Positions 7,036 through 30,724 of a stretch of 64,000 nt of DNA are shown piece after piece (within the stretch, counting starts at the first letter, position 1; each line of letters opens with the position of its first letter). The position numbers and the translations under genes are program-made. The notes beneath the pieces are model-generated. The model was not told the DNA's origin. It worked only from the letters and a program-made list of their open reading frames with translations, and made no database searches. The stretch comes from Haloferula helveola (lineage in GTDB: Bacteria > Verrucomicrobiota > Verrucomicrobiia > Verrucomicrobiales > Akkermansiaceae), in assembly GCF_037076345.1 (NCBI RefSeq), contig NZ_AP024702.1, forward strand, positions 4,154,001 to 4,218,000. Reading direction: 5' to 3'.

Positions 7036-7070
7036 TCCTGGCGCTTCTCCCCTCAAAACCATTAGTTCCC

Positions 7071-8699: not shown

Positions 8700-8733
8700 G
8701 CAATGCCATGGTCTTCACCGATTTGCCGCCACT

Positions 8734-10329: not shown

Positions 10330-10350
10330 ACTGGGAAGCAACCAGCGATC

Positions 10351-11760: not shown

Positions 11761-11781
11761 GCCGCTTTCCACCCATACTCT

Positions 11782-13179
11782 ATGAAGATCTCCGCCAAGC
11801 TCCTGCCGATCTGCCTCGCCGGCTTCTTTCTCATCGGCGCAAGGTCGGCGGGTGCCGAGGAGCGCATGAATGTGCTGCTTCTCATCGCCGACGACCTGAA
11901 CACGTGGATTCTCGAGAAGCCGGAACGCTATTCCGGCAAGGTCATTGCTCCCAATCTCAAGAAGCTGAGCGAAAGCGGCCTGGTCTTCACCCACGCCTAT
12001 ACCGCTTCACCGTTCTGTGTGCCCTCCCGAACCTCGATGTTCTCGGGCGTGAGCCCTCACAAGTCCGGCGTCTACCACAACCAGAGCAACGTCGCTGCCA
12101 GCGCGCCGTTGAAAACCGCACAGTCCCTGTTCGAGACCTTCTCCGGGGCGGGCTACTCAATGTACGGGTATGGGAAGATCACCCACGGATGGCGCGGCAA
12201 GGATGTCTGGGATGACAAGCAGGGGCACAAGCGTGATCCGCGCCCGCCCGGCGCACCCGTGCAGTCGGTCGGCAAGGGCGAGCAGGACTGGGGTCCCATC
12301 CACCTGGCCGAAGATGAAATGAACGACACGGGCGGTGCGAACAGGGCGATCGCCATCCTCAAGCAGGAGCACGAAGGACCCTTCTTCCTGGCCTATGGGA
12401 CGTTCAATCCTCACATGGCCTGGTTCGTGCCGCAGAAGTATTTCGAAATGTTTCCCATGGATGAAGTGAGGACGCCCAAGCTGAACCCCGACGACTTTGA
12501 TGACATTCCGCCCCTCGGCGATGAGGTGGTCGGGGGAAAGCGGGGGTTCACCCAGGCAGTTCTCGATGCGGGTCTGCACAAATCAGCGGTACAGGCCTAC
12601 CTGGCGACTACCGCCTACGTGGATGTTCAGCACGGTCGCGTCCTCGATGCCTTGGCGAAGAGCCCCTACAGAGACAATACCATCGTCATCTTCATCTCGG
12701 ACCACGGATTTCACCTCGCCGAGAAAGACCACTGGCAGAAGGGAACCCTCTGGGAGGAGGCCACCAATTCCATGCTGATGTGCCGCGTCCCGGGCATGAC
12801 CAAGCCCGGTCGCGTCACGGAGCGCTGTGTCTCTTTGCAGGATCTCTACCCAACGCTTCTGGATCTCTGTGGCATCCCCCGACCGGCTCATGTCGACGGG
12901 AAGTCCCTGGTGCCTGTCCTCAAGAATCCTGACGTCGACTGGCGAAGCACCGCCATCAGCTACCTCTACGACCAGTATGCCAGCATCCGCACCGAGCAGT
13001 TCCGCTACATCCGCTACAAGGACGGGCAACAGGAGCTCTATGATCATCGGAAAGATCCCCATGAGTGGAAGAATGAGGTCGGCAATCCCGAATACGCGGA
13101 GGCGCTGGAGATGCTCAACAGCGAGCTTCCAGCTGTCGGAGACATGGCCAAGCAACTGGTCAGGGGTCGAAGGCAGTAG
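11782..13179 (+). CDS. Secreted sulfatase 4, iduronate-2-sulfatase-like
   Basis: 465 residues with a signal peptide ([25 protein letters not shown]). [10 protein letters not shown] (31-40), [12 protein letters not shown] with Cys79, [26 protein letters not shown] and [24 protein letters not shown] identify the same branch as sulfatase 2. The C-terminus ([24 protein letters not shown]) is complete. It starts 21 bases after sulfatase 3 and is the last intact gene of the run. Confidence 0.92.
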
Positions 13180-13414: not shown

Positions 13415-14356
13415 TCAGTCTTTCTTCAGTGTCCGATCAAAGAATGGCACGGCAATTTCCATCATCTGATCGAACCACACTTGCCTGACGGTGAACGGAT
13501 GGGGAGCCCCATTGATGATGGTCAGTCCATTTTCGATTTCAAACTCGTCCATTTTTTTCCGCAAGGCTTCGGCATGAGTGCTGGAATCGTCCTTCTCGCC
13601 GGTGATGATCCAGACTGGTGGATCACTTTCGTCCAGGTGCTCCAAGGGTGAGGCGAGTCGATAGGTTGCGGGAAGTTCCTCTTGCGACCCGCCAAGAAAC
13701 TTCTGCCAGATCTCCGCCGTCGCCGATTTCTCCCGATTTCTCGCTGACATGAAATCCGTTTGCCCACCCATCGGAACCACGGCTTGAAGGGCACTGCTGA
13801 CTCCGGCGTTGCCGCCATCGCCCTCCAGTTCCGCGACACCGCTAGATGTGGCCAAAAGAGCTGCAAGGTGGCCTCCCGCCGAGTGCCCGATAGCGCCGAT
13901 TCTGTCTGCGTTGATGCCGTATTTCTCTGCATTGGCACGAAGAAACCGGACCGCCGCCTTGCAATCGTGAATATGGGCCGGAAACCTTGCCTCACCACTC
14001 AGTCGATAATCAATCGAGGCAGTGACATACCCTTCGGCCGCCAATGCTTGCGCGACCTTGCGATGATTGATCTTGCTGCCTTTTTGCCAGCCTCCACCGT
14101 GAATGCAGACGATCGCTGGCAATGCCTGCGACTCTTCCTTTGGTCGGAAAATATCCATCTGCAAGGTCCGCTCGCCGTAATTCGCGAAGGTCACGTCAAG
14201 TTGTTGATCCAGTCGATCCAAGGTGGCTTTGGGAATGACGGTCTTGCTTTCATCGGGGATTGGATCGGCCTCCGCCAAGCCGGACATCATAGAACTGCAG
14301 ATGAGCAGAGTTGGCGTCGAGAGACGGACGAAGGATAACCTGTGGAATGGTTTCAT
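13415..14356 (-). CDS. Secreted alpha/beta-hydrolase esterase
   Basis: 313 residues with an N-terminal signal-like segment. The oxyanion-hole HGGGW is at 86-90 and the nucleophile elbow GHSAGG has Ser159. The catalytic Asp probably lies in ITGEKDDSSTHAE and the catalytic His in INGAPHPFT. This is the BD-FAE/acetyl-esterase type, which removes acyl groups from carbohydrates or small esters. It is convergent with the sulfatases and lies 53 bases downstream of the DUF1592 gene on the same strand. Its bases look less G+C-rich than the flanking chromosome. Substrate unknown. Confidence 0.85.
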   Translation of the reverse strand: MKPFHRLSFVRLSTPTLLICSSMMSGLAEADPIPDESKTVIPKATLDRLDQQLDVTFANYGERTLQMDIFRPKEESQALPAIVCIHGGGWQKGSKINHRKVAQALAAEGYVTASIDYRLSGEARFPAHIHDCKAAVRFLRANAEKYGINADRIGAIGHSAGGHLAALLATSSGVAELEGDGGNAGVSSALQAVVPMGGQTDFMSARNREKSATAEIWQKFLGGSQEELPATYRLASPLEHLDESDPPVWIITGEKDDSSTHAEALRKKMDEFEIENGLTIINGAPHPFTVRQVWFDQMMEIAVPFFDRTLKKD

Positions 14357-14409
14357 AGGATTTTCTGGTCGGGACGTTTTGGTTGGATAGGGATTGCCAA
14401 GAGGCCCCT

Positions 14410-16890
14410 CTAGTCATCGCGGAACGCCTCACATAAGACAACAAGCTCAACCAAGTCGCGCAGGCCGTTGCCTCGTGCAGCAAGCTCATCAACAATTGCT
14501 TCGACGATTGGCCGGTCTTGAAACCCAACCTCCCGACCCAACCCATAGGTGAGCATCTTTTCAGTGAGGCAATGCGCGAATTGAGTTTTCTGGCCCAGAA
14601 GCAATTGCTTGAGTTCAGCAATATCCGCAAAGGCCTCTCCTGTCGGCAGGGTTCCCGTAGTATCCACCGGTCTGGCGACCTTCCCTGAACTGTCACGGTA
14701 GTTGAAACGTAAGGAGCCGATGGGATCGAAACTTTCCAGAGCAAAACCAATCGGATCAATCTTTCGATGGCACTCGGCACACGTTTCAACGCTTCGATGT
14801 TTGGCAAGCTGCTCCCGAATGGTTGTCGCGCCTCGAATATCCGGTTCCAGGGGCTCGACGTCGGGCGGCGGCGGGGGAGGCGGTGAACCAAGGATGTTTT
14901 CCAACACCCAGATACCGCGGGTGACCGGTGAGGTCTCGACGCCATTCGAGGTCGCCGTCAGGACGCTTGCCTGGGCAAGTAGTCCGCCCCGAAACGATGA
15001 ACCAGGCAATGCGATTCGCCGAAACTCCTCTCCCGCGACCGTCGGCAGGCCATAGTGCTTCGCGAGACTGCGATTGGCGAAGGTGAAGTCCGAATCAATG
15101 AACTTCTCGATGCTCATGTTCTTGTGTAGAATTTCCGCAAAGAACAATTGGGTTTCCCGCCGCATCAACGGCTCAAGCTGACGGTCATAGTAGGATGCAA
15201 ATTTCTGAGGGTCGGGCGGCATTGCCCCCAGTTCATTCAGACGCAACCAACTGTTGGTGAAATTGACGATCAATGCCTCGGCCCGTGGGTCCCGCAACAT
15301 GCGGTGAGTTTGGGCCAGCAGCGTTTGGGGTTCATTCAGTTTTCCGCTGGCAGCCACTTCAAGCAAGTGATCGTCCGGCATCGAGCTCCACAAAAAATAT
15401 GACAATCGGGAGGCAAGCCGGAACGCTCCGTTCACGCTGTTGTCTTCATCGGGAGGAGTCTCCAAATAGATGAAACTCGGCGAACAGAGGATCGCTTTAC
15501 AAGTGGTCAGGAACGCAGACGCCTGAGACTCGCCCGAGGCGCGTCGTGACTCATAGAACTGGCGATATCGAGCGACTTCGGATTCCAATGGTGGGCGACG
15601 GAACGCATGAAAAAGGAATGGGCGGAGTGATCGCGGATGCTTGTCGGCCAATAGATCCATCCGTGACGCGTCTCTGGGTTCCGGACCTGCAATTTGCAGG
15701 TGGTGGATTCGCATACGGGGTCCCTGGTAGACGTCGGAAATCCAGGCATCCGGAATGTCTGACGGCTCTGTCGAGAAGACATCGAGCCAGTTGCTCGTCA
15801 TGGTTTCAGGATGGAACTTGCGGACCAACTTCACCAATGATGCCCGGAAGTTGATCGGCCCGTTGGCATAGCGGATCACCGGCACGAACCCCTTGTCCAT
15901 CCACGTGCGGAATTCGTAGACTGTTGATTCGTGATCCGCCAGCGACACAGTTGCTACAATTCGGTCCGATGAGTTGTGACCCTTTCCCGCATCTGCAACG
16001 TTCGGGTCGGTCACGATGATCTGCATCTGGATCGGCTCATCGGGATCGACCTGCAATGCGCGAGGCGGATAGGGGTGCTCGCGATGGATCCCTTCGGCTC
16101 GCACACGAATGGTGTAGTATCCATCGGCCGGCACACCTTGGAATCCTCTCGCATGCAGTCGCGGCAGTCTGGGAGCGCTGTGCGCGACATCCACATATTC
16201 GCCGGTTGGATTGACGATAAAACTCTGCTCGGGGCGGAAGAGAAACTTGCGTTTGCTGAATTTTTCAGCTGGCAGTGAGACGTCGATGGGGTCGATGACC
16301 TCCCGTGACTGAACGGCCTTCTCGATGCTTCGGGACGCTGCTTCGAGGTAGCATTGCATTAGGTAGTCAGAGAGGACCAGCCTTTCACCGATGTTCTCAA
16401 ACCCATCTATCCGATCATCCGCCGGAAACGAAGCCGTCGGATCGAAGGACTCCATATTCAAGCCCAGAAGATCCCGAATCGTGTTGCGATACTCGGATCG
16501 GTTGAGCCTCCGGAACCGTCCTTGACCACCGGATGCCAGGTGCTCGCGGGCTATCTCGATCTGCTGCGTGAGCCTTGCTACAAATCGCTTCGTCTCGTCA
16601 GCCGTCGGTTGAGGCTCGTCCTCGGGAGGCATGTCGCCGAGATTGACGACGTCCAGAATCTCCTGCCACTGCTCGGCGGTTTGATGGTCTGAAATCGCCG
16701 CACTGAGGGCGTCGAATCGCCTGTCCGCTTTCTGTTTGTCCACACCATGGCAACGGACGCAGTGAGCCTGGAGATACTCGAGGGCAATTGACTCCGCTCC
16801 CTGGGCCGTTGGCAAATGACACGGCACGAGCCACGCGATAAGAAGTGTGACCGCGAAAGTCAGATTCCGGATTAGAGCGAAACACCTCAT
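14410..16890 (-). CDS. DUF1592-family cytochrome-type secreted protein
   Basis: 826 residues with the planctomycete-type multi-domain layout: a signal segment, a c-type heme-like motif CVRCH (44-48) in the PSD1 domain, DUF1587 (RFRRLNRSEYRNTIRDLLGL), DUF1595, DUF1592, DUF1588 with CAECHRKIDPIGFALE, and DUF1585 at the end (TYGLGREVGF, IVEAIVDELAARG). The family is membrane- or periplasm-associated and of unknown biochemical role, usually encoded next to a DUF1552 protein. The ATG at 16888-16890 is chosen because it overlaps the DUF1552 stop as TGATG and starts a good signal peptide (MRCFALIRNLTFAVTLLIAW); an open upstream extension has no similarity. Confidence 0.9.
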   Translation of the reverse strand: MRCFALIRNLTFAVTLLIAWLVPCHLPTAQGAESIALEYLQAHCVRCHGVDKQKADRRFDALSAAISDHQTAEQWQEILDVVNLGDMPPEDEPQPTADETKRFVARLTQQIEIAREHLASGGQGRFRRLNRSEYRNTIRDLLGLNMESFDPTASFPADDRIDGFENIGERLVLSDYLMQCYLEAASRSIEKAVQSREVIDPIDVSLPAEKFSKRKFLFRPEQSFIVNPTGEYVDVAHSAPRLPRLHARGFQGVPADGYYTIRVRAEGIHREHPYPPRALQVDPDEPIQMQIIVTDPNVADAGKGHNSSDRIVATVSLADHESTVYEFRTWMDKGFVPVIRYANGPINFRASLVKLVRKFHPETMTSNWLDVFSTEPSDIPDAWISDVYQGPRMRIHHLQIAGPEPRDASRMDLLADKHPRSLRPFLFHAFRRPPLESEVARYRQFYESRRASGESQASAFLTTCKAILCSPSFIYLETPPDEDNSVNGAFRLASRLSYFLWSSMPDDHLLEVAASGKLNEPQTLLAQTHRMLRDPRAEALIVNFTNSWLRLNELGAMPPDPQKFASYYDRQLEPLMRRETQLFFAEILHKNMSIEKFIDSDFTFANRSLAKHYGLPTVAGEEFRRIALPGSSFRGGLLAQASVLTATSNGVETSPVTRGIWVLENILGSPPPPPPPDVEPLEPDIRGATTIREQLAKHRSVETCAECHRKIDPIGFALESFDPIGSLRFNYRDSSGKVARPVDTTGTLPTGEAFADIAELKQLLLGQKTQFAHCLTEKMLTYGLGREVGFQDRPIVEAIVDELAARGNGLRDLVELVVLCEAFRDD

Positions 16891-18173
16891 CAGCTCAGCC
16901 CCTCCAAGGTTCCCGTGCTGGTTCCAAAGCGATCGGCTTCCACGCCAAAGCGCTGCAACATCGAGAGATACAGATTGCATGCTGGCGTCTTCCGGACTCC
17001 GTCGGCTGCGTAAGCTTTGTGAGCACCGTGCTCGAAACCGCCACCCGCCAGCAGCAAGGGGAGATTTCGATTGGAGTGAGAGCTCGCGTTCCCAAGACCG
17101 CTTCCCATCAAGACCATGGTCCGGTCGAGCAGTGAGGCGTCGTCGGCTACTTGCGAATGTTTCAGTCCGTCAAGGAACCGTGCGAGCTGCGAGGTATGAA
17201 ATTGCTCGATCAGGCCAAGCTGCTGCAGCTTCGATTCATCGCGGCCGTGGTGCGTGAGGTCGTGATAACCCTTGGTGACGCCCGCCAGCCCCGAGTCTCC
17301 GGTCCATCCGTGGATTGCCATTGAAATCAGGCGGGTTGAGTCGGTTTCCAAGGCCAATCTCATCAGGTCGTAGAACAAAGCCACTTCTTCAGTGAAGCTG
17401 GTCGGCAATGGCGCCGGCAATCTGTAGTCCGACTTCGGCTTTGGCTTATTGAGCCATGCCTCTGATTGCTCTAGGCGCTTTTCCACCTCGCGTATCGATG
17501 TAAAGTACTCATCGAGCTTCTCTGAGTCTCCGCGGCTGACGCGCTTGTTCAATGCCGCCGCATCCTCAGCGACCACGTCCAGGATGCTACGATTGGCTGC
17601 ATACGTGTCGACTTGCCGCTTCCGCTTCGAGGCGGGTGTTTCCAAAAACAGCGCGTCGAACAGGGTTTGCAGTCGCGTGATCGTCGGGATCTCGATGCCG
17701 TTTCGCGTCCACGACACGCCGCCACCGCCCAGTCCCAGCTGCATCGATGGGAAACGGGTTCGTACGCCCACAAACTCTGCCGCCCGCTGATCAACCGTGA
17801 CGTTTCCATCGGGATACTGTTTTGCTTGATCCGATCGAATGCCGGACAAGAAGGTGTGAGCCGCCTGATGCCCTCCCGTGATTCCAGGATGATCCAAGCC
17901 GGAAAAGACGGTGAAGTCGTTCTTCAGTGATGCTAACGGAGCCAGGAGACGAGGTAGCTCGTAGTGGCGCCCCGTTTGCTGAGGGAAGAAGTCGTTCGGA
18001 TAGAGCCCGTATTCCAGGCCGATGCAGACCATCCGCATCGGGGTTTCAGCCGTAACCTCCGCCGCCATCAAACGCCTTGGGAGCGCCAGGGATTCAAGGA
18101 ACGGAAGAGCCACAGCGGCTCCTGCTCCAGTCAAGAATCTTCGCCGGTCGAGTCGATTCGTCGTCGGTTTCAT
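16890..18173 (-). CDS. DUF1552-family Tat-exported protein
   Basis: 427 residues starting MKPTTNRLDRRRFLTGAG, a twin-arginine signal (RRRFLTG at 10-16). Typical DUF1552 segments follow: RMVCIGLEYGLYPNDFFP, FTVFSGLDHP, GGHQAAHTFLSG, TVDQRAAEF, SWTRNG, and MGSGLGNASSHSNRNLPLLLAGGGFEHG near the end (the last is quoted in part as GNASSHSNRNLP). The ATG at 18171-18173 is chosen because the Tat motif follows at the normal distance. It is coupled to the DUF1592 gene by a TGATG overlap. The pair is a hallmark of Planctomycetes and Verrucomicrobia; its role is not known. Confidence 0.92.
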   Translation of the reverse strand: MKPTTNRLDRRRFLTGAGAAVALPFLESLALPRRLMAAEVTAETPMRMVCIGLEYGLYPNDFFPQQTGRHYELPRLLAPLASLKNDFTVFSGLDHPGITGGHQAAHTFLSGIRSDQAKQYPDGNVTVDQRAAEFVGVRTRFPSMQLGLGGGGVSWTRNGIEIPTITRLQTLFDALFLETPASKRKRQVDTYAANRSILDVVAEDAAALNKRVSRGDSEKLDEYFTSIREVEKRLEQSEAWLNKPKPKSDYRLPAPLPTSFTEEVALFYDLMRLALETDSTRLISMAIHGWTGDSGLAGVTKGYHDLTHHGRDESKLQQLGLIEQFHTSQLARFLDGLKHSQVADDASLLDRTMVLMGSGLGNASSHSNRNLPLLLAGGGFEHGAHKAYAADGVRKTPACNLYLSMLQRFGVEADRFGTSTGTLEGLS

Positions 18174-18749
18174 CAATGGTAATGACGAGGAACCGAGGAT
18201 TGTTTCCCCATAAAGTGACGACTGCTCGGGCGCTGCTTCTGCCAGCAAGGTCACGGGAGTTGATGTCGGGCAACGCGCGCCAAAACAGTTCGCGGGGCAA
18301 GGGGGAAGAGATCATGTCCCGCCATGGTTCTAGTCTAGATAAAGGTCGCCTCAACGTCAGTTCACCCTCCAAGGCCTGCTCGTCGATTGTAGCCCGGCTG
18401 GCGAGGGTCGTCGGAGGATCTCTGTCGGGTTCTAATCTAGGGAAATCGGCGTGTTTCAGGCGTGTGGTCTTCCGTTAGGTGTTTGTAATCCACTGCCGGT
18501 CAACTCTCCCGATCCCTGAAACAGGGCTCCGACTCCCCTCGCCGCCACCAGCCATTGCCAACGCCTCGGCTGACCAGCCGGAGGCTTGGCGAAGGCTGTC
18601 TGCCATTGCCCAAGTGAGCGAGGGCGGGCTGTTAAATTGTCGACCGGTTGAGAGGGGGGCAAGGCGCGCTTGTGGTAGGGTTCTCTTCAGTCTAAGAAGT
18701 GCAAGCTGTCCAAAAGGGCGGTTGTGAAAAAGCCAAAAACCCTCGATCC
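18174..18749. other. Gap of 576 bases with no gene
   Basis: This stretch separates the divergent DUF1552 gene and the first module protein. It must contain the promoters of both, but no clear -35/-10 pair was found. The one recognisable item is the decayed tRNA-like 3' end at 18521-18550. Open frames here have no similarity to known proteins and seem to be chance. Confidence 0.6.
18521..18550 (+). repeat. Decayed copy of the ssrA/tRNA-like 3' end (possible right att site)
   Basis: Matches 5142-5171 at 27 of 30 bases, including the T-loop core CGACTCCCCTCG and the terminal CCACCA. A mismatch breaks the T-stem (AGGGC against CCCCT), and no 5' acceptor strand or anticodon arm is found upstream, so it is not a working tRNA. 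Weaker similarity continues to about 18580. It is in the same orientation as ssrA, as expected for an attachment-site duplication. Confidence 0.55.
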
Positions 18750-20591
18750 ATGCTGAATAACCCATTCAAGCGTCGGTTCACCCAAGTCATGGCAATCGCC
18801 CTAATGGTGGGTCCGATTCCTGCTTCGGCCGTCGTCATTACCGAGGCAGGGAGCACCGGTGAGTTTGATGAGAACGCCGATGCAACCAATGCCGTCGATG
18901 TCGAGAATCCCGCTGCGACCCTGGCGGCCTTCAAAACGGCGGTCCAAACCGCTTTCGACAACGATCTTGGTGGCGTGGTCGACTGGGAAACCGGGGTAAC
19001 GGCGACGGCAAGCGCGACGACCGCATCAAACAACACGCTCTCCACCGTCGATGTCGCCTACGGCACCAGCGGAACGAAGACGATGAGGATCACCTTCGAC
19101 CGGGTGATGGAGCTCTACACCAACGACGTCAATTCGCAGGTCAACGTGTTGTCGCAGGCGGGAACCTCCCACAACTCCATCCTGCCCCAAGGCACCGCCC
19201 CCACCGCAGTAATCTTCACGATGAGCTTCACCGGTGCCGAGGTGAGCGAACTCGGCGCGGCGATGCCATCGCGCACCACCTTCGGGGCCTCCGGGGTGAC
19301 GTTTGACGTGACCGCCAACTTCAGCGGCGGCGGATCTTCCACGCTGAGCGATACGATCGGCAACGTTCCTGGTGACGACGACACGTTCTTCCATTTTGCC
19401 GCTCCGGTCGACGAGTTCATCAGCTCGCTGACCATTGCCTATGCAAGCGACAACGGACAGGGTCTCGCCAATGGCCAGCGCCGGCCTGTCCTCGATGACT
19501 TCGGGTTCATCGCCGAGGATGCCTTGCCTCCGCCCGACGCTCTCACGACGGGTGTCTTCGATGAGAATGTCGAAGCCACCAATGAGATCGACGTCGAGAT
19601 CCCCTCGGCGACCTTGGCTGCTTTCAAGTCGTCGGTTCAGACGGCCTTCGACAACGATCTCGGCGGCGTCATCGACTGGGAAACCGGTGTCGCTATCGCC
19701 GGTACCACCACCACCCTGCCCACGACCATCGATGTCGGTTACGGGACCAGTGCCAACCAGAACCTCGCCATCGCCTTCGATGCGTCCATGGTGGTTTACA
19801 ATAACAATGTTGCCGGCCAGGTGGAGGTCTTGTCCCGGAAGGGGGTTTTCCAGAACGCTATCATTCCTGCCGATGTCAACGACGTCGACTACACGATGAC
19901 ATTCACCGGCGCTGAGGTCATCGAACTCGGAGCGGGCGTCCCGTCGCGCAGCACCTACAACGTATCGGGTGTCGACTTCCGGGCCACGGCGAGCTTCAGC
20001 GGTGGTGGATCGGAAGTGGTCGATTTCACCGTCGGAGGAACCGCCGGCACCGGAGACACCTTCCTTCACTTCGTGGCTCCGGGAGGCGAGTCGATCACGT
20101 CGTTGTCGGTCGTGTATCTTGATGACAACGGCCAGGGGCTCACCAACGGTCAGAGGCGCCCGATTCTCGACGACCTCGGTTTCATCGTGGCGTCGGCGGG
20201 CGATACCTTCGCCGACTGGATCGCCGACTACCCTGGTGTGGGCGGCCAGACCGGCATCGATGACGACCCGGACGGAGACGGACAGGGCAACGGGGTGGAG
20301 AACTTCTTCGGCACCGACCCCGGCGAGTTTTCCGGCGGGATGGTTGCGGGAGCCGTGAGTGGAAACACCTTCACGTTCACCCATCCCGAGGGCACGCTGG
20401 CGAGCGATCTCGAAGCGGTTTACAAGTGGTCGACGGATCTTCAGGACTTCTACGGGGACGGCGTGACGCAAGGCGGAGTCACCGTGGACTTTTCGAGCTC
20501 CTCGGCCGGTGGCGTCACCACCGTGATCGCGACGATCACCGGATCGGTCACCCGGATCTTCGTAAGGACCGAGGTGACTTTGATCGAATGA
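18750..20591 (+). CDS. Secreted protein A with two copies of an unrecognised ~225-residue module
   Basis: 613 residues: a signal peptide (MLNNPFKRRFTQVMAIALMVGPIPASA), module A1 (about 38-262), module A2 (about 264-484), then a C-terminal region with DDDPDGDGQGNGVENFFGTDPGEF and the ending RIFVRTEVTLIE, a calcium-binding-style linker and tail common in secreted verrucomicrobial proteins. Each module runs from FDEN-xATN-xxDVExPxATLAAFK, through AFDNDLGGVxDWETGV and FTGAEVxELGA, to DDNGQGLxNGQRRPxLDDFGFI. The aromatic- and Asp-rich pattern suggests an all-beta, perhaps carbohydrate-binding fold, but I do not recognise a named domain. The next gene carries the same pair of modules. The ATG at 18750 is chosen for its signal peptide. 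Confidence 0.85.
   Translation: MLNNPFKRRFTQVMAIALMVGPIPASAVVITEAGSTGEFDENADATNAVDVENPAATLAAFKTAVQTAFDNDLGGVVDWETGVTATASATTASNNTLSTVDVAYGTSGTKTMRITFDRVMELYTNDVNSQVNVLSQAGTSHNSILPQGTAPTAVIFTMSFTGAEVSELGAAMPSRTTFGASGVTFDVTANFSGGGSSTLSDTIGNVPGDDDTFFHFAAPVDEFISSLTIAYASDNGQGLANGQRRPVLDDFGFIAEDALPPPDALTTGVFDENVEATNEIDVEIPSATLAAFKSSVQTAFDNDLGGVIDWETGVAIAGTTTTLPTTIDVGYGTSANQNLAIAFDASMVVYNNNVAGQVEVLSRKGVFQNAIIPADVNDVDYTMTFTGAEVIELGAGVPSRSTYNVSGVDFRATASFSGGGSEVVDFTVGGTAGTGDTFLHFVAPGGESITSLSVVYLDDNGQGLTNGQRRPILDDLGFIVASAGDTFADWIADYPGVGGQTGIDDDPDGDGQGNGVENFFGTDPGEFSGGMVAGAVSGNTFTFTHPEGTLASDLEAVYKWSTDLQDFYGDGVTQGGVTVDFSSSSAGGVTTVIATITGSVTRIFVRTEVTLIE
18861..19530 (+). repeat. Module copy A1
   Basis: First copy of the shared module, starting at the FDENADATN codons. 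It is closest to B1: both have NTL...ITFDRxMELYTND, SHNxxLPxGT and DDTFFHFAAP. Confidence 0.8.
19542..20205 (+). repeat. Module copy A2
   Basis: Second copy, starting TTGVFDENVEATNEID. It is closest to B2: both have FQNAIIPxDVNDVDYTMTF and GGSEVVDFTVGGTAG. Confidence 0.8.
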
Positions 20592-20675
20592 TCGGCCTTG
20601 GAGGGTATTGGTGGACCGTCCGGCCAACCGGGCGATGTTCGGGTTGATCACGTGACTCCTGTCTTCTTTTTGAAA

Positions 20676-23600
20676 ATGAACAAACACCTGAGGGAGTCTC
20701 TCACTCCCGCATGTCGACTCGCAGCGGTTGCGGGCTTTGCCTTGGTCGCGCTCACGACGTCCGCTTTCGGTGCTCACTACCACGTCTATCTTCTCGGAGG
20801 GCAATCGAACGGCAACGGGCGTGCCGATGCGGCCCAACTGACTACGCCCTTGGACGCTGCACAGACCGATGTGCGCTTCTATTGGCATCGCACCCAGTCG
20901 GTAAGCAACGTGGGTTGGATCCTGGAAGACCAGTGGACCGATCTCGCCCCGGGGTCGGGTCACGGGACCGGTTCGCCGGTGTATCCCAAGGAGTTCGGCT
21001 GTGAAGTTTCGTTCGGCCGGGCGATGGCGGATGCGAAGCCTTCGGACAACATCGCCATCATCAAATACACCCATGGTGGAACCAACCTCTATTCCAATTG
21101 GTCCGCCAGCGGCACCCAGTACACGACCTTTGTTTCAACCGTTCAGGCGGGACTTGCCGCTCTGACCACGGCGGGGCACACCTACGATCTCAAGGGCATG
21201 CTCTGGCAGCAGGGCGAGGCCGACACGGGTGGGAGCAATGCGGACAACTACGAGACCAATCTCACCAACCTGATCGCCCGGGTGCGGACCGATCTGTTCG
21301 CAGGTGGTCCGCTTCCGTTCCTCATCGGCAGCCTCTCCGACAGCCAATACTCCAACATCACGACCGTCGGCTCGGGACCCTACAAGGTGCGGCAGGCGCA
21401 GGAGACAGTGGCGGCGGCCGATGCGGCGGCGGGAATCGTGATCACCGACGGCTACAGCACCCGTCTTGGTGACTCGATTCACCTCGATCACACCGCCCAA
21501 GTGACCCTCGGACAGAGCTTCGCCACGCTGATGCTCACCTTTGAGGGCCCGGATGTCTCGCCCCCGGTAATATCGGCGACAAGCCCGGCTGATGATGCCA
21601 CCGGAGTGGCGGCCAATGGCGATCTCGTGGCGACCTTCAACGAACCGATCGCATTGGTGAACGGCGGCACGGTGACCATCCGTGATCTGGGTCCGGGTGC
21701 CGATGTCGTCATCACGCTTCCAGACTCACGCGTCATCGCCTCTGGAAGCGACCTGATCATCGACCCTTCGACGGACCTGGCGTTCGAAAATCCCTATGCG
21801 ATCCGGATCAGCGCGGACGCGGTCGCTGACCTTGCGGCCACTCCGAACCTGTTCGGTGGAATCGCGGACGACACCACATGGAATTTCATCACGGGAACAA
21901 CCGAACCGGTGATCTCCGAACTCAGTCCGGCGGACGATGCGACCGGTGTCGCTGCCGGAGCCAACCTCGTGCTCACCTTCAACGAGGCCGTGCAAAAAGG
22001 CTCGGGAGGGGACATCGTGATCAAGGAGAACGGGGGAGCGGTCTTCGAGACCATTCCCGTGACCGATGCGCGCGTCGCCGTGAGCGGGTCGACCGTGACG
22101 GTCAATCCGACCGGCACCTTCGCGCTGGGCACCGGCTATCACGTGCAGGTTGCGGACGGGGCCATCGAGGACCTCGGAGGAAACCCCTGGTCGGGGATTT
22201 CCAGTGCCGACACGACGACTTGGAACTTCACCACCATTCTCCCGGCCAACGCGGTGGGGACGAGCGGAGTCTTTGACGAGAATACCGACGCCACCAATGC
22301 GATCGATGTCGAGAATCCTCCGGCCACTCTGGCAGCCTTCAAGACGGCGGTCCAAACGGCCTACGACAACGATCTCGGCGGGGTGGTGGACTGGGAGACC
22401 GGTGTCACGGCCAACCCGAGTGGAGGTTCGGCGTCCAACAATACGCTCACCGCCATCAGCGCGGTGTTCGGGTCGGGTTCCTCCCGGTTGCTGGGGATCA
22501 CGTTCGATCGAACCATGGAGCTTTACACCAATGACATCAATGGCCAGGTCACCGTGCTCTCGCGGCAGGGAGCGTCCCACAATGCCGTGCTCCCGGCAGG
22601 CACGAGTTCGTCTTCGGTTCTGTTCGAGATGACTTTGACGGGTGCGGAGGTCACCGAAGTGGGAGCGGCGATGCCGTCGCGGAGCACCTTTGGCGCCGCG
22701 GGTGTCGACTTCCGGATCGCGGCCAACTTCAGCGGAGGAGGATCGTCCGTGTTGGAGGACACCATCGGGAACGCCAAGGGGGCCGACGACACGTTCTTCC
22801 ACTTTGCCGCGCCGGGCGACCAATACATCACCTCGCTCAGCATCGCCTATCTCGATGACAACGGGCAGGGGCTGACCGATGGCCAGCGCCGCCCGATTCT
22901 CGACGACTTCGGGTTCATCATTCGCGACGCTCCGCCGCCTCCGCCTCCGGCGGACGTTCTGACAACCGGTGTCTTCGATGAAAATGTCGAAGCCACCAAC
23001 GCGATCGATATCGAGATCCCGGCGTCGACACTCGCATCGTTCAAGACCGCGGTTCAGACGGCTTTCGACAACGATCTCGGCGGAGTCATCGACTGGGAGA
23101 CCGGCGTAACCGCGACCCCGAGCAGCGGAGGCACCGCCAACAACACCTTGGATACCGTGCTCGAAATCGGATACGGAACAGGCGCGGGCGAGAGGCTGAC
23201 CATCACCTTCGACGAGCCCATGGAGCTCTATACGAACAACGTCGCCGGACAGGTGAGCGTCCTGTCGCAGCAGGGAAGCTTTCAGAACGCGATCATCCCG
23301 GACGACGTCAATGACGTCGACTATACGATGACGTTCTCCGGTGCCGTGGTGACCGAACTCGGAGCTGCCATCCCGTCACGGAGCACCTACATGGCGTCGG
23401 GCGTCGACTTCCGGGCCACCGCGAGCTTCAGCGGAGGCGGATCGGAAGTGGTTGATTTCACCGTTGGAGGAACTGCCGGCAGCGGGGACACGTTCCTTCA
23501 CTTCGCGGCGCCGGGCGGCGAGTCGATCAGTTCATTGTCGGTCGTTTATCTCGATGACAACGGCCAAGGCCTGACCAACGGCCAGAGGCGGCCGATCCTC

Positions 23601-24023
23601 GATGACCTGGGTTTCATCGCGGCGTCGGCGGGGGAAACCTACGCCAATTGGATCGATGAATATCCCGGTGTTGGCGGTCAGACCGGAGTCGATGACGACC
23701 CCGACGGAGACGGCAACGGCAACGGAGTGGAGAACTTCTTCGGCACCGACCCCGGTGAATTCTCCGGGGGGATCATCGCTGGAACCGTAAGCGGGAATAC
23801 CTTCACTTTCAGCCATCCACAGGGGACGTTGGCGAGCGATCTCGATGCCGTCTACACATGGTCGACCGATCTGCTGGGGTTCCACGGGGACGGTGAGACC
23901 CACGGTGGCGTCACCGTGGATTTCGCGACCTCAACCTCAGTGGGTATCACCACGGTGACGGCGACAGTCACCGGTTCGGTGGACCGCATCTTCGTGAGGG
24001 CCGAGGTCACGTTGATCGAATAG
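20676..24023 (+). CDS. Secreted protein B: sialate-O-acetylesterase-like domain, two Ig-like domains, two shared modules
   Basis: 1115 residues with a signal peptide ending near TSAFGA. Residues 34-290 form a SASA/carbohydrate-esterase domain: GGQSNGNG (41-48) with nucleophile Ser44, IIKYTHGGTNLY, GMLWQQGEADTGG and the DSIHLD motif near 265-270 supplying Asp and His. This type removes acetyl groups from glycans. Two Big_5-type Ig-like domains follow (about 297-405 and 410-521, each with SPADDATGVAA and VxTFNEPI/LTFNEAV), then modules B1 (about 527-757) and B2 (about 760-985), and the same C-terminal DPDGDGNGNGVENFFGTDPGEF tail as protein A. The 84 bases between the two genes hold no promoter-like signal that I can see. 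The ATG at 20676 fits the signal peptide. Confidence 0.88.
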   Translation: MNKHLRESLTPACRLAAVAGFALVALTTSAFGAHYHVYLLGGQSNGNGRADAAQLTTPLDAAQTDVRFYWHRTQSVSNVGWILEDQWTDLAPGSGHGTGSPVYPKEFGCEVSFGRAMADAKPSDNIAIIKYTHGGTNLYSNWSASGTQYTTFVSTVQAGLAALTTAGHTYDLKGMLWQQGEADTGGSNADNYETNLTNLIARVRTDLFAGGPLPFLIGSLSDSQYSNITTVGSGPYKVRQAQETVAAADAAAGIVITDGYSTRLGDSIHLDHTAQVTLGQSFATLMLTFEGPDVSPPVISATSPADDATGVAANGDLVATFNEPIALVNGGTVTIRDLGPGADVVITLPDSRVIASGSDLIIDPSTDLAFENPYAIRISADAVADLAATPNLFGGIADDTTWNFITGTTEPVISELSPADDATGVAAGANLVLTFNEAVQKGSGGDIVIKENGGAVFETIPVTDARVAVSGSTVTVNPTGTFALGTGYHVQVADGAIEDLGGNPWSGISSADTTTWNFTTILPANAVGTSGVFDENTDATNAIDVENPPATLAAFKTAVQTAYDNDLGGVVDWETGVTANPSGGSASNNTLTAISAVFGSGSSRLLGITFDRTMELYTNDINGQVTVLSRQGASHNAVLPAGTSSSSVLFEMTLTGAEVTEVGAAMPSRSTFGAAGVDFRIAANFSGGGSSVLEDTIGNAKGADDTFFHFAAPGDQYITSLSIAYLDDNGQGLTDGQRRPILDDFGFIIRDAPPPPPPADVLTTGVFDENVEATNAIDIEIPASTLASFKTAVQTAFDNDLGGVIDWETGVTATPSSGGTANNTLDTVLEIGYGTGAGERLTITFDEPMELYTNNVAGQVSVLSQQGSFQNAIIPDDVNDVDYTMTFSGAVVTELGAAIPSRSTYMASGVDFRATASFSGGGSEVVDFTVGGTAGSGDTFLHFAAPGGESISSLSVVYLDDNGQGLTNGQRRPILDDLGFIAASAGETYANWIDEYPGVGGQTGVDDDPDGDGNGNGVENFFGTDPGEFSGGIIAGTVSGNTFTFSHPQGTLASDLDAVYTWSTDLLGFHGDGETHGGVTVDFATSTSVGITTVTATVTGSVDRIFVRAEVTLIE
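22255..22945 (+). repeat. Module copy B1
   Basis: Third copy of the shared module, starting TSGVFDENTDATNAID. It pairs with A1 by sequence. Confidence 0.8.
22957..23630 (+). repeat. Module copy B2
   Basis: Fourth copy, starting LTTGVFDENVEATNAID. It pairs with A2 by sequence and leads into a C-terminal tail nearly identical to that of protein A. Confidence 0.8.
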
Positions 24024-24335: not shown

Positions 24336-27300
24336 TTACTCCGCTCCGGTCAGGCGGCCGAACAGGGCGCCGTTGATGGCGTTGCCGGCGGCGGGAATGG
24401 TGGCCACGACGTCGTTCTTGGTCGAGTCGCCGGCATTCTCGGTGACTGTGAAGTCCACGCCGCCGACCGTGCCGGTGGCTGCGGGAACATCGACGCTTGT
24501 CCATGCATCGCCGACGCCAAGATCGCTGCTGTGCCCCAAGCTGAGCACCGCCGGAGCCCCTTCGCTCGGCTTCAGCATGGTGAAGGTCATCACCAGACCG
24601 CCGGAACCATCTTCGGTCGGTGTCGGAAGCAGGCCGTTGGCATCTTCATCGGGAGTGGCCGCACCGAGCAGGAAGGCGATACCGTCATCGACTCCGTCGC
24701 CATTGGCGTCGCCTTCAAAGGTGACGCCGCCCACCGTGCCGCTGGTTGCCCAGGTGTCGAACGGGTCGGCTACCGTGCCTCCGGTGTATTCGACGCCGGA
24801 GAGCTCGAGGTCCGCACCATTGAATGTCAGGGTGGCGGCGCTGGTGTCCCAGCCCGTTCCCGTGACGGTCACGGTGCCGCCGGTGCCGACGAGCGTGAAG
24901 TCGCCGGTGTAGGTGGCGGCGTTGGCGATCACGTAGATGTCGGTGAGATTGCTCTCGGCCGGGGTCAGTCCGTCGATGGCGGCCAGATCGATCGTCAGTG
25001 CGCCGAGGGACTCGAAGGTGTTGACGTAAATGGTGTCGTAGCCGGTTCCGAATCCGGCGGCGGGATCTGCCACTTCGAGTTCGAAGGTGGCTCCGTCTTC
25101 GAGGGTGATCGAGCCGCTGCCGTCACCGAGGGTGCCGGCGCTGGCGCCGGGAGCGACGCCGCCAACGACAACCGTGCCGCCGTTATCGATGTCGCCGGAG
25201 CCGCTAAGCGTGCCAGTGACGGTGATCGTATTGCCGTTAGGGAGCAAACGGGTGTCGGCTCCGACGTCGATGGCAGGGAGAGTCTGGTCGACCATCATCC
25301 GGGTGGTGCCGGAGCGGAGCTCCAGCAGGTCGGCGGTGATGGCTTGGTAGAACTCAACTTCGCCGGTTTGCAGCGAGGTCTCGAGAGCCCCCGTGTGGAG
25401 CGATGGAATGCGGTCGGGATCGTCGCTGCCGACCCGCACGATCGCTCCCGGAGCTGAGACCTCCACATTGACCTTGTTGGGCCGGTAACCCGAAGGCGGG
25501 TTCGGGGCGATACCGAGCACATCGGTCTCGCCCGGAGGAGCGTTCCCGGCGGGGACGAGCTTCGAGCCGTTGCCGCTATCGATGGAATTGGCATTGGCGG
25601 AATAGCTGCTGGACCAACTCCAGATGAAGTACTTCTCGTGGCCGATCCGAAGATCGGAGTCGATATTGACCTCAACCGGTCCGTCGACCGCGATGTCGGC
25701 GTTCTGCAGCAGGTCGGCGAGGATCGGATAAGTCGTCGCGCCGCTGTAGTCGAAGGCGTAGACCAGATCGTCATCCAGCGAGACGACCGGCATTCCGCTG
25801 TAGCTGAAGGACCCGTTGCCGGGCGCGCCGTCGAGGGCTTCGAGGAACTCGAGGTTGGAGTTGCTGATCTGAATGTTGTGCAGCCCCGAGAAGTTCAGCG
25901 ACACGGTGTCGGTGCCTGCGGCGAAGGCCGTCTCGCACCGGATCATCCGGCCGTTTGAAAGGTTGACCGTTCCGTGTTGGCCGCGCCCCGCAAAATCATC
26001 GACGGGCCTCCATGAGCCGTTGGAGATGTTCCAGGTCTGACCTTCCAAAATGTGGGTCCGTGGTGAGCTCCAGTGGTCCATGATCCAGGCGGCTTCATTT
26101 CCGACCTCGCCCTGGATGTTGAAAGTGTCGATGCGGGTCGGCTCGCTGCCGTCGTAGGCGTAATCGCCGTTCAAGGTGTAGCGATTGCGGAACAGGGCTC
26201 CATTCAGAACCACAATGTCCGCCGTGGTGCTGGTGCCGTCGCCGAAGAACTTGTTGTTCTGATCGACATTGAAGGTTCCGGCGCTTCCGAAGACGAGTTG
26301 CAAATCGCCTGAACCCGTCTCAGCGGTCAATTCCATGCCGGCGACCGTGCCGTACCAAGGGCCAATGGCGGCGCCTTTGTAAATGGCGGTCGCTCCATCG
26401 TCGCCCACTGTCAGCACCTTGCTGCCCGAAAGGACACCCTGATAGATGGTGGCGCCTCCAATGTCCGCACGGGCGGGCGAAGGCCCGGCGGAGGGCGCGA
26501 AAACGGCGTCTGCGGCGAAGGCGACGTTCCCGCCGCCGCCGTAGGTGGCACCGGTCAGGTCACCGGCCAACGCAGCGAACGCTCCCACGTTGATCAGGCC
26601 CGGAAGAGTGGTCTGGGGAACCTGGATGTCGAGGTAGCCGCCGCTGTCGATGTTCACAGTCGTGGTTCCGTCGCCCAAAGCCCCGTCTCGCTCGACGAAG
26701 TACTGGGCGGCATTCTGGATCGTGATCGTGGTTGCCGACACGATGCCGTCGGCGAAGAACTTGCTGGAACCGTCGTCCAGCAAGACACTCGGCGTTGTCA
26801 AAGTCGGAACCGCTGCTGTCGTGGGATGCGGTTCGAGGTAGGCGTTGGTGTTGGCGTCATCCCTGACGACCTTGAACTCGGTCGTCGCGTTCACGTCGCC
26901 ATACAGGTAGACGTCGCCACGGCCGAGATCGACTTCCGGCGTGGTGATGGATTGGAAGAACTTCACGCCTCCAAGCCGGTAACGGGTGCGGACTTCCGTG
27001 TTGGCGATGATCGGGACGTCCACTTCGTAGGCGGGGCGTCCGCCTTGCTGGACGTGGAAAATGTCGCAGGTGAGGGTCGCGCCGCCGACGTTGTCCTCGA
27101 TCCGGGATCCGCCCTCGCTGCCCTTGTACATGCTGACTTGGCTGTTCGGGAGGCTGACGGAAACGCCGTTGAGATCGGCGATCGCGGTTGCCGGAATGGG
27201 AGAGACGCCCTTGGCGCCGCCATTGACGTTGGCGGCGTCACCATCCACCGGGACAACGTCGCCGCCCCAGTTTTCGGGAGTGGCCCAGAATTGATTTGCG

Positions 27301-27446
27301 CCGCCGCCATCCCAAGTGATGTTGGCCGCGTTGACCGTTGCGCTGAATCCAAGCATCGCGATCGCGATGGGGGTGATGGCCGGGAGAGAGCCGTGGCCAG
27401 TTGCTGTCTGTGACAGTGACCGGTTCGTCAAATGCATGTGCTTCAT
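24336..27446 (-). CDS. Autotransporter-like repetitive surface protein
   Basis: 1036 residues with a signal peptide near TPIAIAMLGFSATVNAA, directly followed by ITWDGGGANQFWATPENW, the start pattern of PATR/autotransporter-associated beta-strand proteins. The central part is a long series of short beta-strand units rich in Gly, Asn, Thr and Asp, with LSGSGDIDNGGTVVVGG, a typical beta-helix spacer. The C-terminal part (about 900-1036) has VGGVTFEGDANGDGVDDG, AFLLGAATPDEDANG and LGHSSDLGVGDAWTSVD, a C-terminal region often seen in large secreted verrucomicrobial proteins. It is probably displayed or secreted and may bind polysaccharide; no catalytic site is visible. The GntR/LacI-type regulator lies upstream on the same strand. 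Confidence 0.8.
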   Translation of the reverse strand: MKHMHLTNRSLSQTATGHGSLPAITPIAIAMLGFSATVNAANITWDGGGANQFWATPENWGGDVVPVDGDAANVNGGAKGVSPIPATAIADLNGVSVSLPNSQVSMYKGSEGGSRIEDNVGGATLTCDIFHVQQGGRPAYEVDVPIIANTEVRTRYRLGGVKFFQSITTPEVDLGRGDVYLYGDVNATTEFKVVRDDANTNAYLEPHPTTAAVPTLTTPSVLLDDGSSKFFADGIVSATTITIQNAAQYFVERDGALGDGTTTVNIDSGGYLDIQVPQTTLPGLINVGAFAALAGDLTGATYGGGGNVAFAADAVFAPSAGPSPARADIGGATIYQGVLSGSKVLTVGDDGATAIYKGAAIGPWYGTVAGMELTAETGSGDLQLVFGSAGTFNVDQNNKFFGDGTSTTADIVVLNGALFRNRYTLNGDYAYDGSEPTRIDTFNIQGEVGNEAAWIMDHWSSPRTHILEGQTWNISNGSWRPVDDFAGRGQHGTVNLSNGRMIRCETAFAAGTDTVSLNFSGLHNIQISNSNLEFLEALDGAPGNGSFSYSGMPVVSLDDDLVYAFDYSGATTYPILADLLQNADIAVDGPVEVNIDSDLRIGHEKYFIWSWSSSYSANANSIDSGNGSKLVPAGNAPPGETDVLGIAPNPPSGYRPNKVNVEVSAPGAIVRVGSDDPDRIPSLHTGALETSLQTGEVEFYQAITADLLELRSGTTRMMVDQTLPAIDVGADTRLLPNGNTITVTGTLSGSGDIDNGGTVVVGGVAPGASAGTLGDGSGSITLEDGATFELEVADPAAGFGTGYDTIYVNTFESLGALTIDLAAIDGLTPAESNLTDIYVIANAATYTGDFTLVGTGGTVTVTGTGWDTSAATLTFNGADLELSGVEYTGGTVADPFDTWATSGTVGGVTFEGDANGDGVDDGIAFLLGAATPDEDANGLLPTPTEDGSGGLVMTFTMLKPSEGAPAVLSLGHSSDLGVGDAWTSVDVPAATGTVGGVDFTVTENAGDSTKNDVVATIPAAGNAINGALFGRLTGAE

Positions 27447-27673: not shown

Positions 27674-28750
27674 TCAGCCGCGGCGGCGTCTCGAGAGGGC
27701 CCGGCCGATGCTTTCGCCGCGGACCAGCTTCGTCTTCGTAAGCGACTGAACGAGGTCGCTCTTGCCCTGGCTCACATTCCGGACCCACCTGACGATCCGT
27801 CGGACCCAAGGACGGCTGTCCCAGAGTACGTGGGCGACGGATGGCTGTTGCAACTCGAAGTAGGGATCCCAGTCCGTACACGCGAGGGACACATGCTGGG
27901 GTGCGAGGATGCCACGCCGGGCCAGATGCTGCTGCACGCTGAGGAAGATGGGCGGCTCATCCAGAACGATGGCGGTGGGTGGCGTGAGCTTGAAAATGGA
28001 ATCGACCACGTTCCCCAACGTCTCGCTTTTCCCGTCCCAGTCCGGCAGGTTGTAGCTTCCGGTCCGAATGCCGCCGCGCCGCAATTCATCGAGGAACGCC
28101 CGCTCGGGTGCTCCCGGTCTGGGCAGGCGCCGCACGGGTCTCGTCAGCATGGTGATGCGCTCGTGACCCAACTCGATGAAGTGCCGTGCCAATTCCCTGA
28201 GGGCCGGCGACTTGTCGGGGCCGATTCCCGCAATCGGAAGGCCCGACCGGCGCCCGAACATCGCGAAAGCCGGCACAGGGCATTCGGAAAACCATGTGAG
28301 CACTTCGCGCGGACCCGCGACGACAATCCATGCGTCCGCCTGGGTCGTCTCGATCAGCTTGGTGATCCTCGCCATGTTTCCCTTCATGAGCGTGATGGAA
28401 GTCTTCGGAAATAGAACGGTGTGTCCGTCTTCCTGAAGAAGTCGCTGGAGATCCATGATGTAGTCGAAGCGATAGTCTTCGATCAGGTAGGGCAGGAAGG
28501 CGACCTTCAGGGACGAGGAATAGCTGCGAGTCGTGGAGACCCTACGTGGGAGCCTGGCACCCTGGCTGACAAGTTCGCCCTGCTTCTCGAGCAGGTCGAG
28601 CGCGGCGTCGACCGTCATCCGTCCGACTCCCAATTCCCGCGCCAAGGCCGCTCCGCCAGGCATGGTGCCGGTCCATGTTCCGGAGCGGATCTCTTTGCGC
28701 AAATGATCCGCGACCTGTTCGGCGGCGGTAAGGACTCGCAAGGTGGGCAT
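27674..28750 (-). CDS. GntR/LacI-hybrid transcriptional regulator (AraR-like)
   Basis: 358 residues. The N-terminus is a GntR-type winged helix: VADHLRKEIRSGTW, ALARELGVGRMTVDAALDLLEKQGEL. Residues from about 80 onward form a LacI-type periplasmic-binding-protein-like sensor with SLKVAFLPYL, DAWIVVAGP, FAMFGRRSGLPIAGIGPD, HFIELGHERITMLTR and HVSLACTDWDPYFE. Such hybrids normally bind a sugar and control its uptake and degradation genes. It is divergent from the esterase at 28907 and upstream of the surface protein at 24336. A C-terminal RRRRG tail is unusual but short. The start ATG at 28748-28750 is preceded by GGGAGAG on the minus strand, a fair ribosome-binding site. Confidence 0.85.
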   Translation of the reverse strand: MPTLRVLTAAEQVADHLRKEIRSGTWTGTMPGGAALARELGVGRMTVDAALDLLEKQGELVSQGARLPRRVSTTRSYSSSLKVAFLPYLIEDYRFDYIMDLQRLLQEDGHTVLFPKTSITLMKGNMARITKLIETTQADAWIVVAGPREVLTWFSECPVPAFAMFGRRSGLPIAGIGPDKSPALRELARHFIELGHERITMLTRPVRRLPRPGAPERAFLDELRRGGIRTGSYNLPDWDGKSETLGNVVDSIFKLTPPTAIVLDEPPIFLSVQQHLARRGILAPQHVSLACTDWDPYFELQQPSVAHVLWDSRPWVRRIVRWVRNVSQGKSDLVQSLTKTKLVRGESIGRALSRRRRG

Positions 28751-28760
28751 GGCTCTCCCT

Positions 28761-28770
28761 TATCAGAAAT
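28761..28770 (-). promoter_or_regulatory. Second copy of the ATTTCTGATA decamer
   Basis: On the minus strand these ten bases equal 27574-27583. They lie 10 bases before the regulator start and in the divergent region shared with the esterase gene, the normal place for an autoregulatory site. Confidence 0.35.
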
Positions 28771-28906
28771 GAGGTCCAGGAAGGAAGTGGCAACCGGTGG
28801 CGGCCGGAATCCGTGTCATGGCTTGTGCTTTGCGGCAGCCATCCTCCGTATGGGTGCCATTGGACTGCCTGCGACCCCAGGCAGCGCGTTCCGCCACTCT
28901 ACAACG

Positions 28907-30724
28907 ATGTTCACGAGGATTGGTTCCCTGCTCCTGATGGTGATGGCTTCCGCTGCTCTTGGTGCGGACGAGACGTTCGCTCCGTACGAATCCACGGAAG
29001 ACGTTCCGCAACGGGCCGAAGAGTTATGGGAAGCCTACGACCCCCGCGAGGAAGCGTTGGAGGTCAAGATCGTGAAGGAATGGAAGGAGAACGGAGTGGT
29101 GACCCGATACATCACCTTCAAGGTCGGGACCTTCAAGGGAAGTGATGCCCGGATCGCTGCTTACTACTCCTTCCCCGACAATGGCGGGCGGAATCCGGCA
29201 TTCGTCTGGAGCCATGGGGGCGGTCAGCGGGCAGAGCGGGGCCGTGGCGTCTATTTCGCGAAGCAGGGCTTCGCCACGGTCGACATCAACTGGCTCGGCC
29301 GACCGATGGAGGACGACATCAAGATCAACACCGATTGGGGTAAGGTGGATCCGACCCAAGGACCCCGGTTTTACAAGAAGGCACTGAGAGATGGTTGGAA
29401 GCGAGATCTCCAACCGGACGAGCACACGATCGATCCGGTGCCGAGCCCGCGGAACGCGAACTGGTTCCTGCTCGCCGTGGCGGCGCGGCGGGCAATCACG
29501 TTTCTGGAACAACAGCCCGAGGTAGATCCCGACAGGCTCGGGTTCTCCGGATTCTCGATGGGCGGAATGGTCACCGCGCTGACCGCCACCGATAGTCGGC
29601 TCAAGGCGGTGGCGCCGTTCGTCGGCGGGACGGGTTTCAAATACGTCGACTTTCCGGGCGGGATCCGAGGGAGCAGCATCCGCACCCATTTCCAAGACCT
29701 GGATCTCTATCGGAAGACCATTGATGCGTCCGCCTACTGGCCTTCGGTCCGGTGCCCGGTGATGTTCATCAGTTCGTCCAACGACTTCCACGCGACCTTC
29801 GAGCGCATCTACCGTTCGATGGCGCTGCTCCAGCACGACGACTGGCGGGTCAGTGCCAACATCCACCGCAATCATGGTCCCGACCCCGAGCAGTGGGTCA
29901 TGCTGAACCTGTGGTTCGACCGTTACCTCAAAGGCGTCGATCCCGATATCCCGGTCACGCCTCCGTCGAGCTTCGAGGTGGAGGGTAAAACGGCGCGCTT
30001 CGTGGTGACGCCCGCGCAGCGCGACCGCCTCGTCGGCGTCGAGGTCTACTACAGCTACGACCCCAATTCGCGGACCCGATTCTGGAATCGGGCGGATGCT
30101 ATCGAGGCGGCAGGGAAGTATCGGGTCGATCTGCCGGTGCACGAGAACCTGCCACTGTACGTGTTCGCGCTCTGCCGTTACCGATTGCCGGGCAAGGTCA
30201 CTCTTGAGCGCGGCGAAACGACCACCTTCACGCTGAACTCACTCGAGCACGTTCATTTGCCGGATGCGGTCGATCTTTCCGCGCTGGCTGACGTTCCGAA
30301 GACGCGGACCGTCTTCGAGGATTTCGAGCATGGTCTGCAGGATTGGGCGAGCCGGGACCAGTGCAGCATCCAGACGTACAAGTTCCAAAGTCCCGAGCTG
30401 GATACCTCGAATGACAAGAAGTTGGTCCTGACCGTCGACCCGAAGGGCAGGAAACTGCTGCTTCGCCTCAGAACCGGTAGCGACTTTCTCGGTAAGGAAG
30501 GAAAGTTCGGCAGCTTCACGTTCACCAAACCTGTTGACGGAAAAGCTTCCCGCAATGTCGTGGTCGAACGGAAAGACTTCCGAGGTGAAGATGGGGAGAC
30601 GCTGGAGTGGGCGAATATCGTGACTTTCGACGTTGCCCTCATCGATCGGGAGACCAGGGAGCCGGTGAACCTGACGTCGGAACATGGTCGCGGGATCCTG
30701 CAAAGAATCGAACTGGTCGATTGA
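28907..30724 (+). CDS. Secreted dienelactone-hydrolase/acetylxylan-esterase-like hydrolase
   Basis: 605 residues with a signal peptide (MFTRIGSLLLMVMASAALG). Residues about 60-400 are an alpha/beta-hydrolase: VWSHGGGQRAERG near the oxyanion hole, the nucleophile elbow GFSGFSMGG, ISSSNDFHATFERI near the acid residue, and NIHRNHGPDPEQW with the likely catalytic His. The remaining 200 residues are beta-rich, with a final FEDFEHGLQDWASRDQCS jelly-roll-like domain that may bind carbohydrate. It is divergent from the GntR/LacI regulator, which suggests sugar-responsive control. The ATG at 28907 is used because an open extension upstream has no signal peptide or similarity. Confidence 0.82.
   Translation: MFTRIGSLLLMVMASAALGADETFAPYESTEDVPQRAEELWEAYDPREEALEVKIVKEWKENGVVTRYITFKVGTFKGSDARIAAYYSFPDNGGRNPAFVWSHGGGQRAERGRGVYFAKQGFATVDINWLGRPMEDDIKINTDWGKVDPTQGPRFYKKALRDGWKRDLQPDEHTIDPVPSPRNANWFLLAVAARRAITFLEQQPEVDPDRLGFSGFSMGGMVTALTATDSRLKAVAPFVGGTGFKYVDFPGGIRGSSIRTHFQDLDLYRKTIDASAYWPSVRCPVMFISSSNDFHATFERIYRSMALLQHDDWRVSANIHRNHGPDPEQWVMLNLWFDRYLKGVDPDIPVTPPSSFEVEGKTARFVVTPAQRDRLVGVEVYYSYDPNSRTRFWNRADAIEAAGKYRVDLPVHENLPLYVFALCRYRLPGKVTLERGETTTFTLNSLEHVHLPDAVDLSALADVPKTRTVFEDFEHGLQDWASRDQCSIQTYKFQSPELDTSNDKKLVLTVDPKGRKLLLRLRTGSDFLGKEGKFGSFTFTKPVDGKASRNVVVERKDFRGEDGETLEWANIVTFDVALIDRETREPVNLTSEHGRGILQRIELVD

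Follow-up and report, generated by a model that had tools for sequence, protein, structure and literature searches.

What is the module of ~220 residues that stands in four copies, two per protein (A1, A2, B1 and B2), in two neighbouring secreted proteins of Haloferula helveola, and what might it do there? Both proteins are encoded on the plus strand of the window, the stretch of 64,000 nucleotides that was analysed as a whole, with 84 bases between the stop of A and the likely ATG of B.

Proteins A and B and the order of their duplications

Protein A (ORF 18699-20591, likely ATG 18750, gene 18750-20591) consists of a predicted signal peptide (MLNNPFKRRFTQVMAIALMVGPIPASA, 18750-18830), modules A1 (18840-19517) and A2 (19542-20192) and a C-terminal domain (20193-20588). 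Protein B (ORF 20598-24023, likely ATG 20676, gene 20676-24023) opens with a predicted signal peptide (MNKHLRES...TTSAFGA, 20676-20774), followed by a SASA carbohydrate esterase domain (20778-21536; Pfam PF03629, E 1.7e-32), two Big_5 Ig-like domains (Pfam PF13205), modules B1 (22254-22925) and B2 (22959-23624) and the counterpart of the C-terminal domain of A (23625-24020). The first Big_5 domain was matched in two stretches and has approximate limits (21564-21893); the second covers residues 434-546 (21897-22235). Signal peptides were read by eye from the ORF translations. Protein B belongs to the SASA esterases (PF03629) by its Pfam match, the GQSN nucleophile motif and the DxxH block; the motifs GQSN, WQQGE and DSIHLD can all be read from its sequence.

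Upstream lie four plus-strand sulfatase genes (6876-13179; Pfam PF00884) at 6876-8699, 8653-10329, 10351-11760 and 11782-13179. A BD-FAE-type esterase, a DUF1592/PSCyt protein and a DUF1552 protein, assigned by Pfam, are encoded beside A and B on the minus strand (13415-18254), and a gene at 28421-30724 has weak Pfam matches to AXE1/DLH-like hydrolases. The sulfatase run directly upstream of the esterase/DUF1592/DUF1552/A/B group suggests a sulfated-polysaccharide locus. These neighbours are of the same kind as those described for PSCyt proteins, which in Verrucomicrobia can bear carbohydrate-binding modules and have sulfatase genes nearby (PMC5615132). The DUF1592 protein of the window contains no copy of the module. 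Elsewhere in the window, an 872-residue protein (2042-4660) has residues 710-861, at the C-terminal end, assigned to a carbonic anhydrase domain, and its first ~700 residues had no Pfam match at the threshold used.

The four copies over two adjacent proteins, first pointed out in the earlier note, are real. Their pairwise identities are 80% for A2/B2, 68% for A1/B1, 64% for B1/B2, 62% for A1/B2, 60% for A2/B1 and 58% for A1/A2, and the local alignment scores of A1/A2, B1/B2, A1/B1 and A2/B2 (635-879) were far above the maximum of 82 reached in 500 shuffles. The strict common pattern that had been described holds in three motifs invariant across the four copies (FDEN..ATN, DNDLGGV.DWETGV and QRRP.LDD.GFI) but not in FTGAEV.ELGA, which reads LTGAEVTEVGA in B1 and FSGAVVTELGA in B2, nor in DDNGQGL, which is SDNGQGL in A1. 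A profile search of the genome of H. helveola found no copies beyond these four.

The proposed pairing of A1 with B1 and of A2 with B2, visible in the identities, was also recovered by IQ-TREE with PEP-CTERM relatives as outgroup. A2 and B2 were grouped at 100/100, giving the split A1B1|A2B2 and not a tree that joins A1 with A2 and B1 with B2. The duplication of the module within the gene is older than the duplication of the gene. The tree thus agrees with the duplication of a two-module gene that the earlier note had put forward, but the duplicated unit was larger and also took in the C-terminal domain: DNA similarity between A and B covers both modules and the C-terminal domain but stops short of the SASA/Big_5 part. 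Since four-fold degenerate sites are merely 44-50% identical between corresponding copies of A and B, the gene duplication is old.

History of protein B and the shared C-terminal domain

By Pfam, A and B differ in the SASA and Ig-like (Big_5) part, and a search with this part found many homologues. The homologue in genome G042 has a 70% identical SASA domain followed by two LamG domains, two Big_5 domains, a sulfatase and the same C-terminal domain as A and B, while in genome G017 SASA is followed by a sulfatase. A paralogue in the genome of H. helveola continues its SASA domain (67% identical) with TSP3 and two other DD-ending repeats. These multi-module esterases of Akkermansiaceae and relatives share the SASA domain with B and, in G042, the C-terminal domain; unlike B, they hold LamG (concanavalin A-like), TSP3 or other DD-ending repeats, or a sulfatase in the region corresponding to the module, which was absent from all five SASA homologues examined. 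The fusion of SASA esterase and sulfatase in one secreted protein was observed in L140 (G042, 1555 residues) and L141 (G017, 1724 residues).

Protein B therefore looks like a mosaic. Whether one copy had gained or the other had lost the SASA and Ig-like part had been left undecided; the difference itself is real, and as to its direction, gain by B is more likely than loss from A, because SASA homologues, whether from the same genome or from relatives, come with other modules, and none of the five examined has this one. An internal duplication produced the module pair, the pair was then duplicated as a unit together with the C-terminal domain, and one of the resulting copies was probably joined to a SASA-Big_5 part.

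The C-terminal domain, absent from the earlier note, comprises ~130 residues (~132 in A and B, which are 78% identical here) with the pattern W.......DDPDGDG..NG.E..LGTDP......WSTDL...VTATVTG..LFVR.EV-COOH, and has no Pfam or NCBIfam name. Up to 27 matches, the weakest of them partial, occur in the genome of H. helveola, and the domain was detected in 32 of the 54 genomes searched, this one included; genomes of the same genus contain five to 21 copies at E 1e-8. It stood at the C-terminus in 37 of 38 proteins checked (19/20 in the genome of H. helveola, 18/18 in other genomes). This constant position on many different large proteins makes it a candidate sorting or anchoring domain. The genome encodes two exosortases; A and B lack a PEP-CTERM anchor and end in this other domain, while several stand-alone relatives of the module have PEP-CTERM. 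The C-terminal domain may represent a sorting signal in its own right that is widespread in this group. Downstream of B, on the minus strand, a 1036-residue secreted protein without Pfam match (24336-27446) shows in its C-terminal part a W....DGDG..DG....LG layout similar to the C-terminal domain of A and B.

An unnamed domain family in Verrucomicrobiota

In line with the earlier failure to name the module, none of the four copies had a sequence match in Pfam, NCBIfam or PDB, and 12 family members compared with Pfam at E values up to 5 gave nothing except two chance matches. Searches of genome and viral contigs with the four modules returned no relatives, and plasmid records no match; whole-genome profile searches alone revealed them. 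A profile of the four copies, run on 57 genomes, detected weak relatives in five genomes besides that of H. helveola. With two stand-alone PEP-CTERM relatives added, 32 of the 387 genomes from the order gave matches, a count that includes a few partial, probably chance matches such as those in genus g3. A 12-row profile matched in 11 of 388 genomes sampled over the phylum Verrucomicrobiota. Verrucomicrobium sp. BvORR106 and BvORR034 are among the genomes with the module, which is hence no speciality of this gene pair. Stand-alone PEP-CTERM proteins were matched at E 1e-62 to 1e-81 by a profile that itself contains some of them, and inserts in DUF1592 proteins at up to 3e-15 by a profile built without any DUF1592 protein. 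An Akkermansia-like match (L038) was rejected as a chance hit, given its outer-membrane beta-barrel look and an alignment confined to the first ~66 positions.

A short helix and the motif F..AV..AF..G.GGV.[DN][FW][ED] mark the start of family members, and FSDGS....DTFF.F.AP.G..I..L....DD[LI]GFI marks their end. These comparisons support the module as an unnamed domain family, one without an entry in current libraries. About ten members stand alone in secreted proteins that are 290-370 residues long and mostly have a PEP-CTERM end. In about 20 genomes the module is inserted between PSD3/DUF1587 and PSD5/DUF1595 of PSCyt1-DUF1592-DUF1588-DUF1585 proteins, as checked by Pfam in one protein (L007) and judged by length and visible sequence in the rest. 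It further occurs at the N-terminus of one phosphodiester glycosidase (NAGPA) protein, in the N-terminal part of Ig/FG-GAP proteins (1098-1305 residues) and twice within one 1701-residue protein. For most relatives, the host protein contains no recognised carbohydrate enzyme. The copies in the DUF1592/PSCyt cytochrome proteins L065, L066, L007, L017 and similar ones are divergent and unannotated by Pfam.

Predicted fold and possible ligands

Module B2 was modelled by AlphaFold2 from a six-row alignment (pLDDT 73.3, pTM 0.77). The model has an N-terminal helix (residues 22-37) followed by about 13 strands and leaves the first ~20 residues, with the conserved FDEN..ATN motif, unmodelled. Its best PDB match by Foldseek was BtuJ1, a B12-binding DUF4465 jelly-roll (E 7.4e-5, TM about 0.49), followed by CBM61 (E 2.7e-4); CBM4, CBM51, CBM16 and CBM22 were found below E 0.005, and further matches were MAM and viral haemagglutinin-esterase sandwiches. 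Modelling a PEP-CTERM relative in the same way yielded a poor structure (pLDDT 53) with weak structural matches. With moderate confidence, the predicted fold is of the beta-jelly-roll class, so the new fold that had been considered is probably not present.

The match to BtuJ1 raises the possibility that the module is a distant DUF4465 relative, with vitamin B12 or another corrinoid as its ligand on the cell surface. Secretion and PEP-CTERM anchors are common to both families, the DD/DN directly follows the loop preceding the last strand in both, and B12 binding has been shown for some verrucomicrobial members of DUF4465 (PMC13398666). Nevertheless, we consider such a kinship very unlikely. No member matched PF14717, and the profile-profile probability against verrucomicrobial DUF4465 proteins was 0.1%. 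The NTPAY motif of the DUF4465 HI loop, whose B12-binding tyrosine is 97% conserved (PMC13398666), is absent, the position before DD being GQRRPILDD or GDLRLGIDD, and so is the TNTTY helix motif seen in verrucomicrobial members. DUF4465 is an augmented jelly-roll with N-terminal strands and its helix in loop DE; for B2, too, a jelly-roll is predicted, but the helix of the model is N-terminal. The gene neighbourhood differs, with sulfatases and esterases but no B12 transport gene among the 20 genes around A and B in Pfam scans. On the HMM, profile-profile and motif results, membership in DUF4465 was rejected.

The jelly-roll carbohydrate-binding modules CBM61, CBM4, CBM16, CBM22 and CBM51 resemble the module in the predicted fold, in the C-terminal strand with a DD pair and in being discrete domains, here on a secreted carbohydrate esterase. 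As a discrete domain the module is combined with SASA and two Big_5 domains in B and with NAGPA in a relative. It is longer (~220 residues), has an N-terminal helix and matches no CBM family in Pfam. The modules reported in PSCyt/DUF1592 proteins of Planctomycetes and Verrucomicrobia (LamG, NPCBM, CBM6 and PA14; PMC5615132) offer a second comparison, as our family likewise sits within DUF1592 proteins, where PSD3 and PSD5 flank it. Unlike them, the module has no Pfam name, and in A and B it stands outside any PSCyt protein. On balance we lean towards a non-catalytic binding module, and we infer a ligand that is probably a glycan. In favour of this are the structural matches, the insertion into PSCyt proteins, the LamG domains, other repeats or sulfatase at the corresponding place in SASA homologues, and the sulfatases and esterases nearby; against it speak the moderate TM of the best match and the many relatives outside carbohydrate enzymes. 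Jelly-rolls bind much besides sugars, including vitamins and proteins. If the module is a glycan-binding beta-jelly-roll domain on secreted proteins, the B1-B2 tandem would keep the SASA esterase on an acetylated, probably sulfated polysaccharide, and protein A, with the same pair and the C-terminal domain but without the enzyme, would accompany B at the surface as a glycan-binding protein.

The acidic pair near the C-terminus of the module (D in 26/28 and 27/28 members of a non-redundant set) could also be read as the mark of an uncharacterised enzyme domain working with the esterase. Conservation is mostly in glycine, aromatic residues and the DD pair, however, and no histidine or cysteine is kept family-wide, which makes catalysis very unlikely. 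The DD pair in jelly-rolls is commonly structural.

A spacer or an adhesion/matrix domain of surface proteins, one without a defined small ligand, would agree with the tandem copies in A, B and the 1701-residue protein, with the neighbouring Big_5 domains, which are typical spacers, and with the stand-alone PEP-CTERM members, which resemble exosortase-sorted surface or matrix proteins. This is a possible role, if less than likely: the helix-GGV and FSDGS/DTFF/DD motifs are kept over very divergent contexts, and the module is inserted into PSCyt proteins, a group known for binding modules, both of which suggest more than a spacer.

The domain family, missed by current libraries, links PEP-CTERM proteins, PSCyt/DUF1592 proteins and multi-module esterases, all of them poorly understood groups in Verrucomicrobiota. 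The module is small and soluble, and its ligand could be the first for DUF1592 proteins. Speculatively, and with rather low confidence, the module may be an undescribed binding domain that the PSCyt/DUF1592 cytochrome proteins, themselves unexplained, have in common with free surface proteins sorted by exosortase. If this were true, knowing its ligand would show on what substrate the PSCyt/DUF1592 system of Verrucomicrobia acts.
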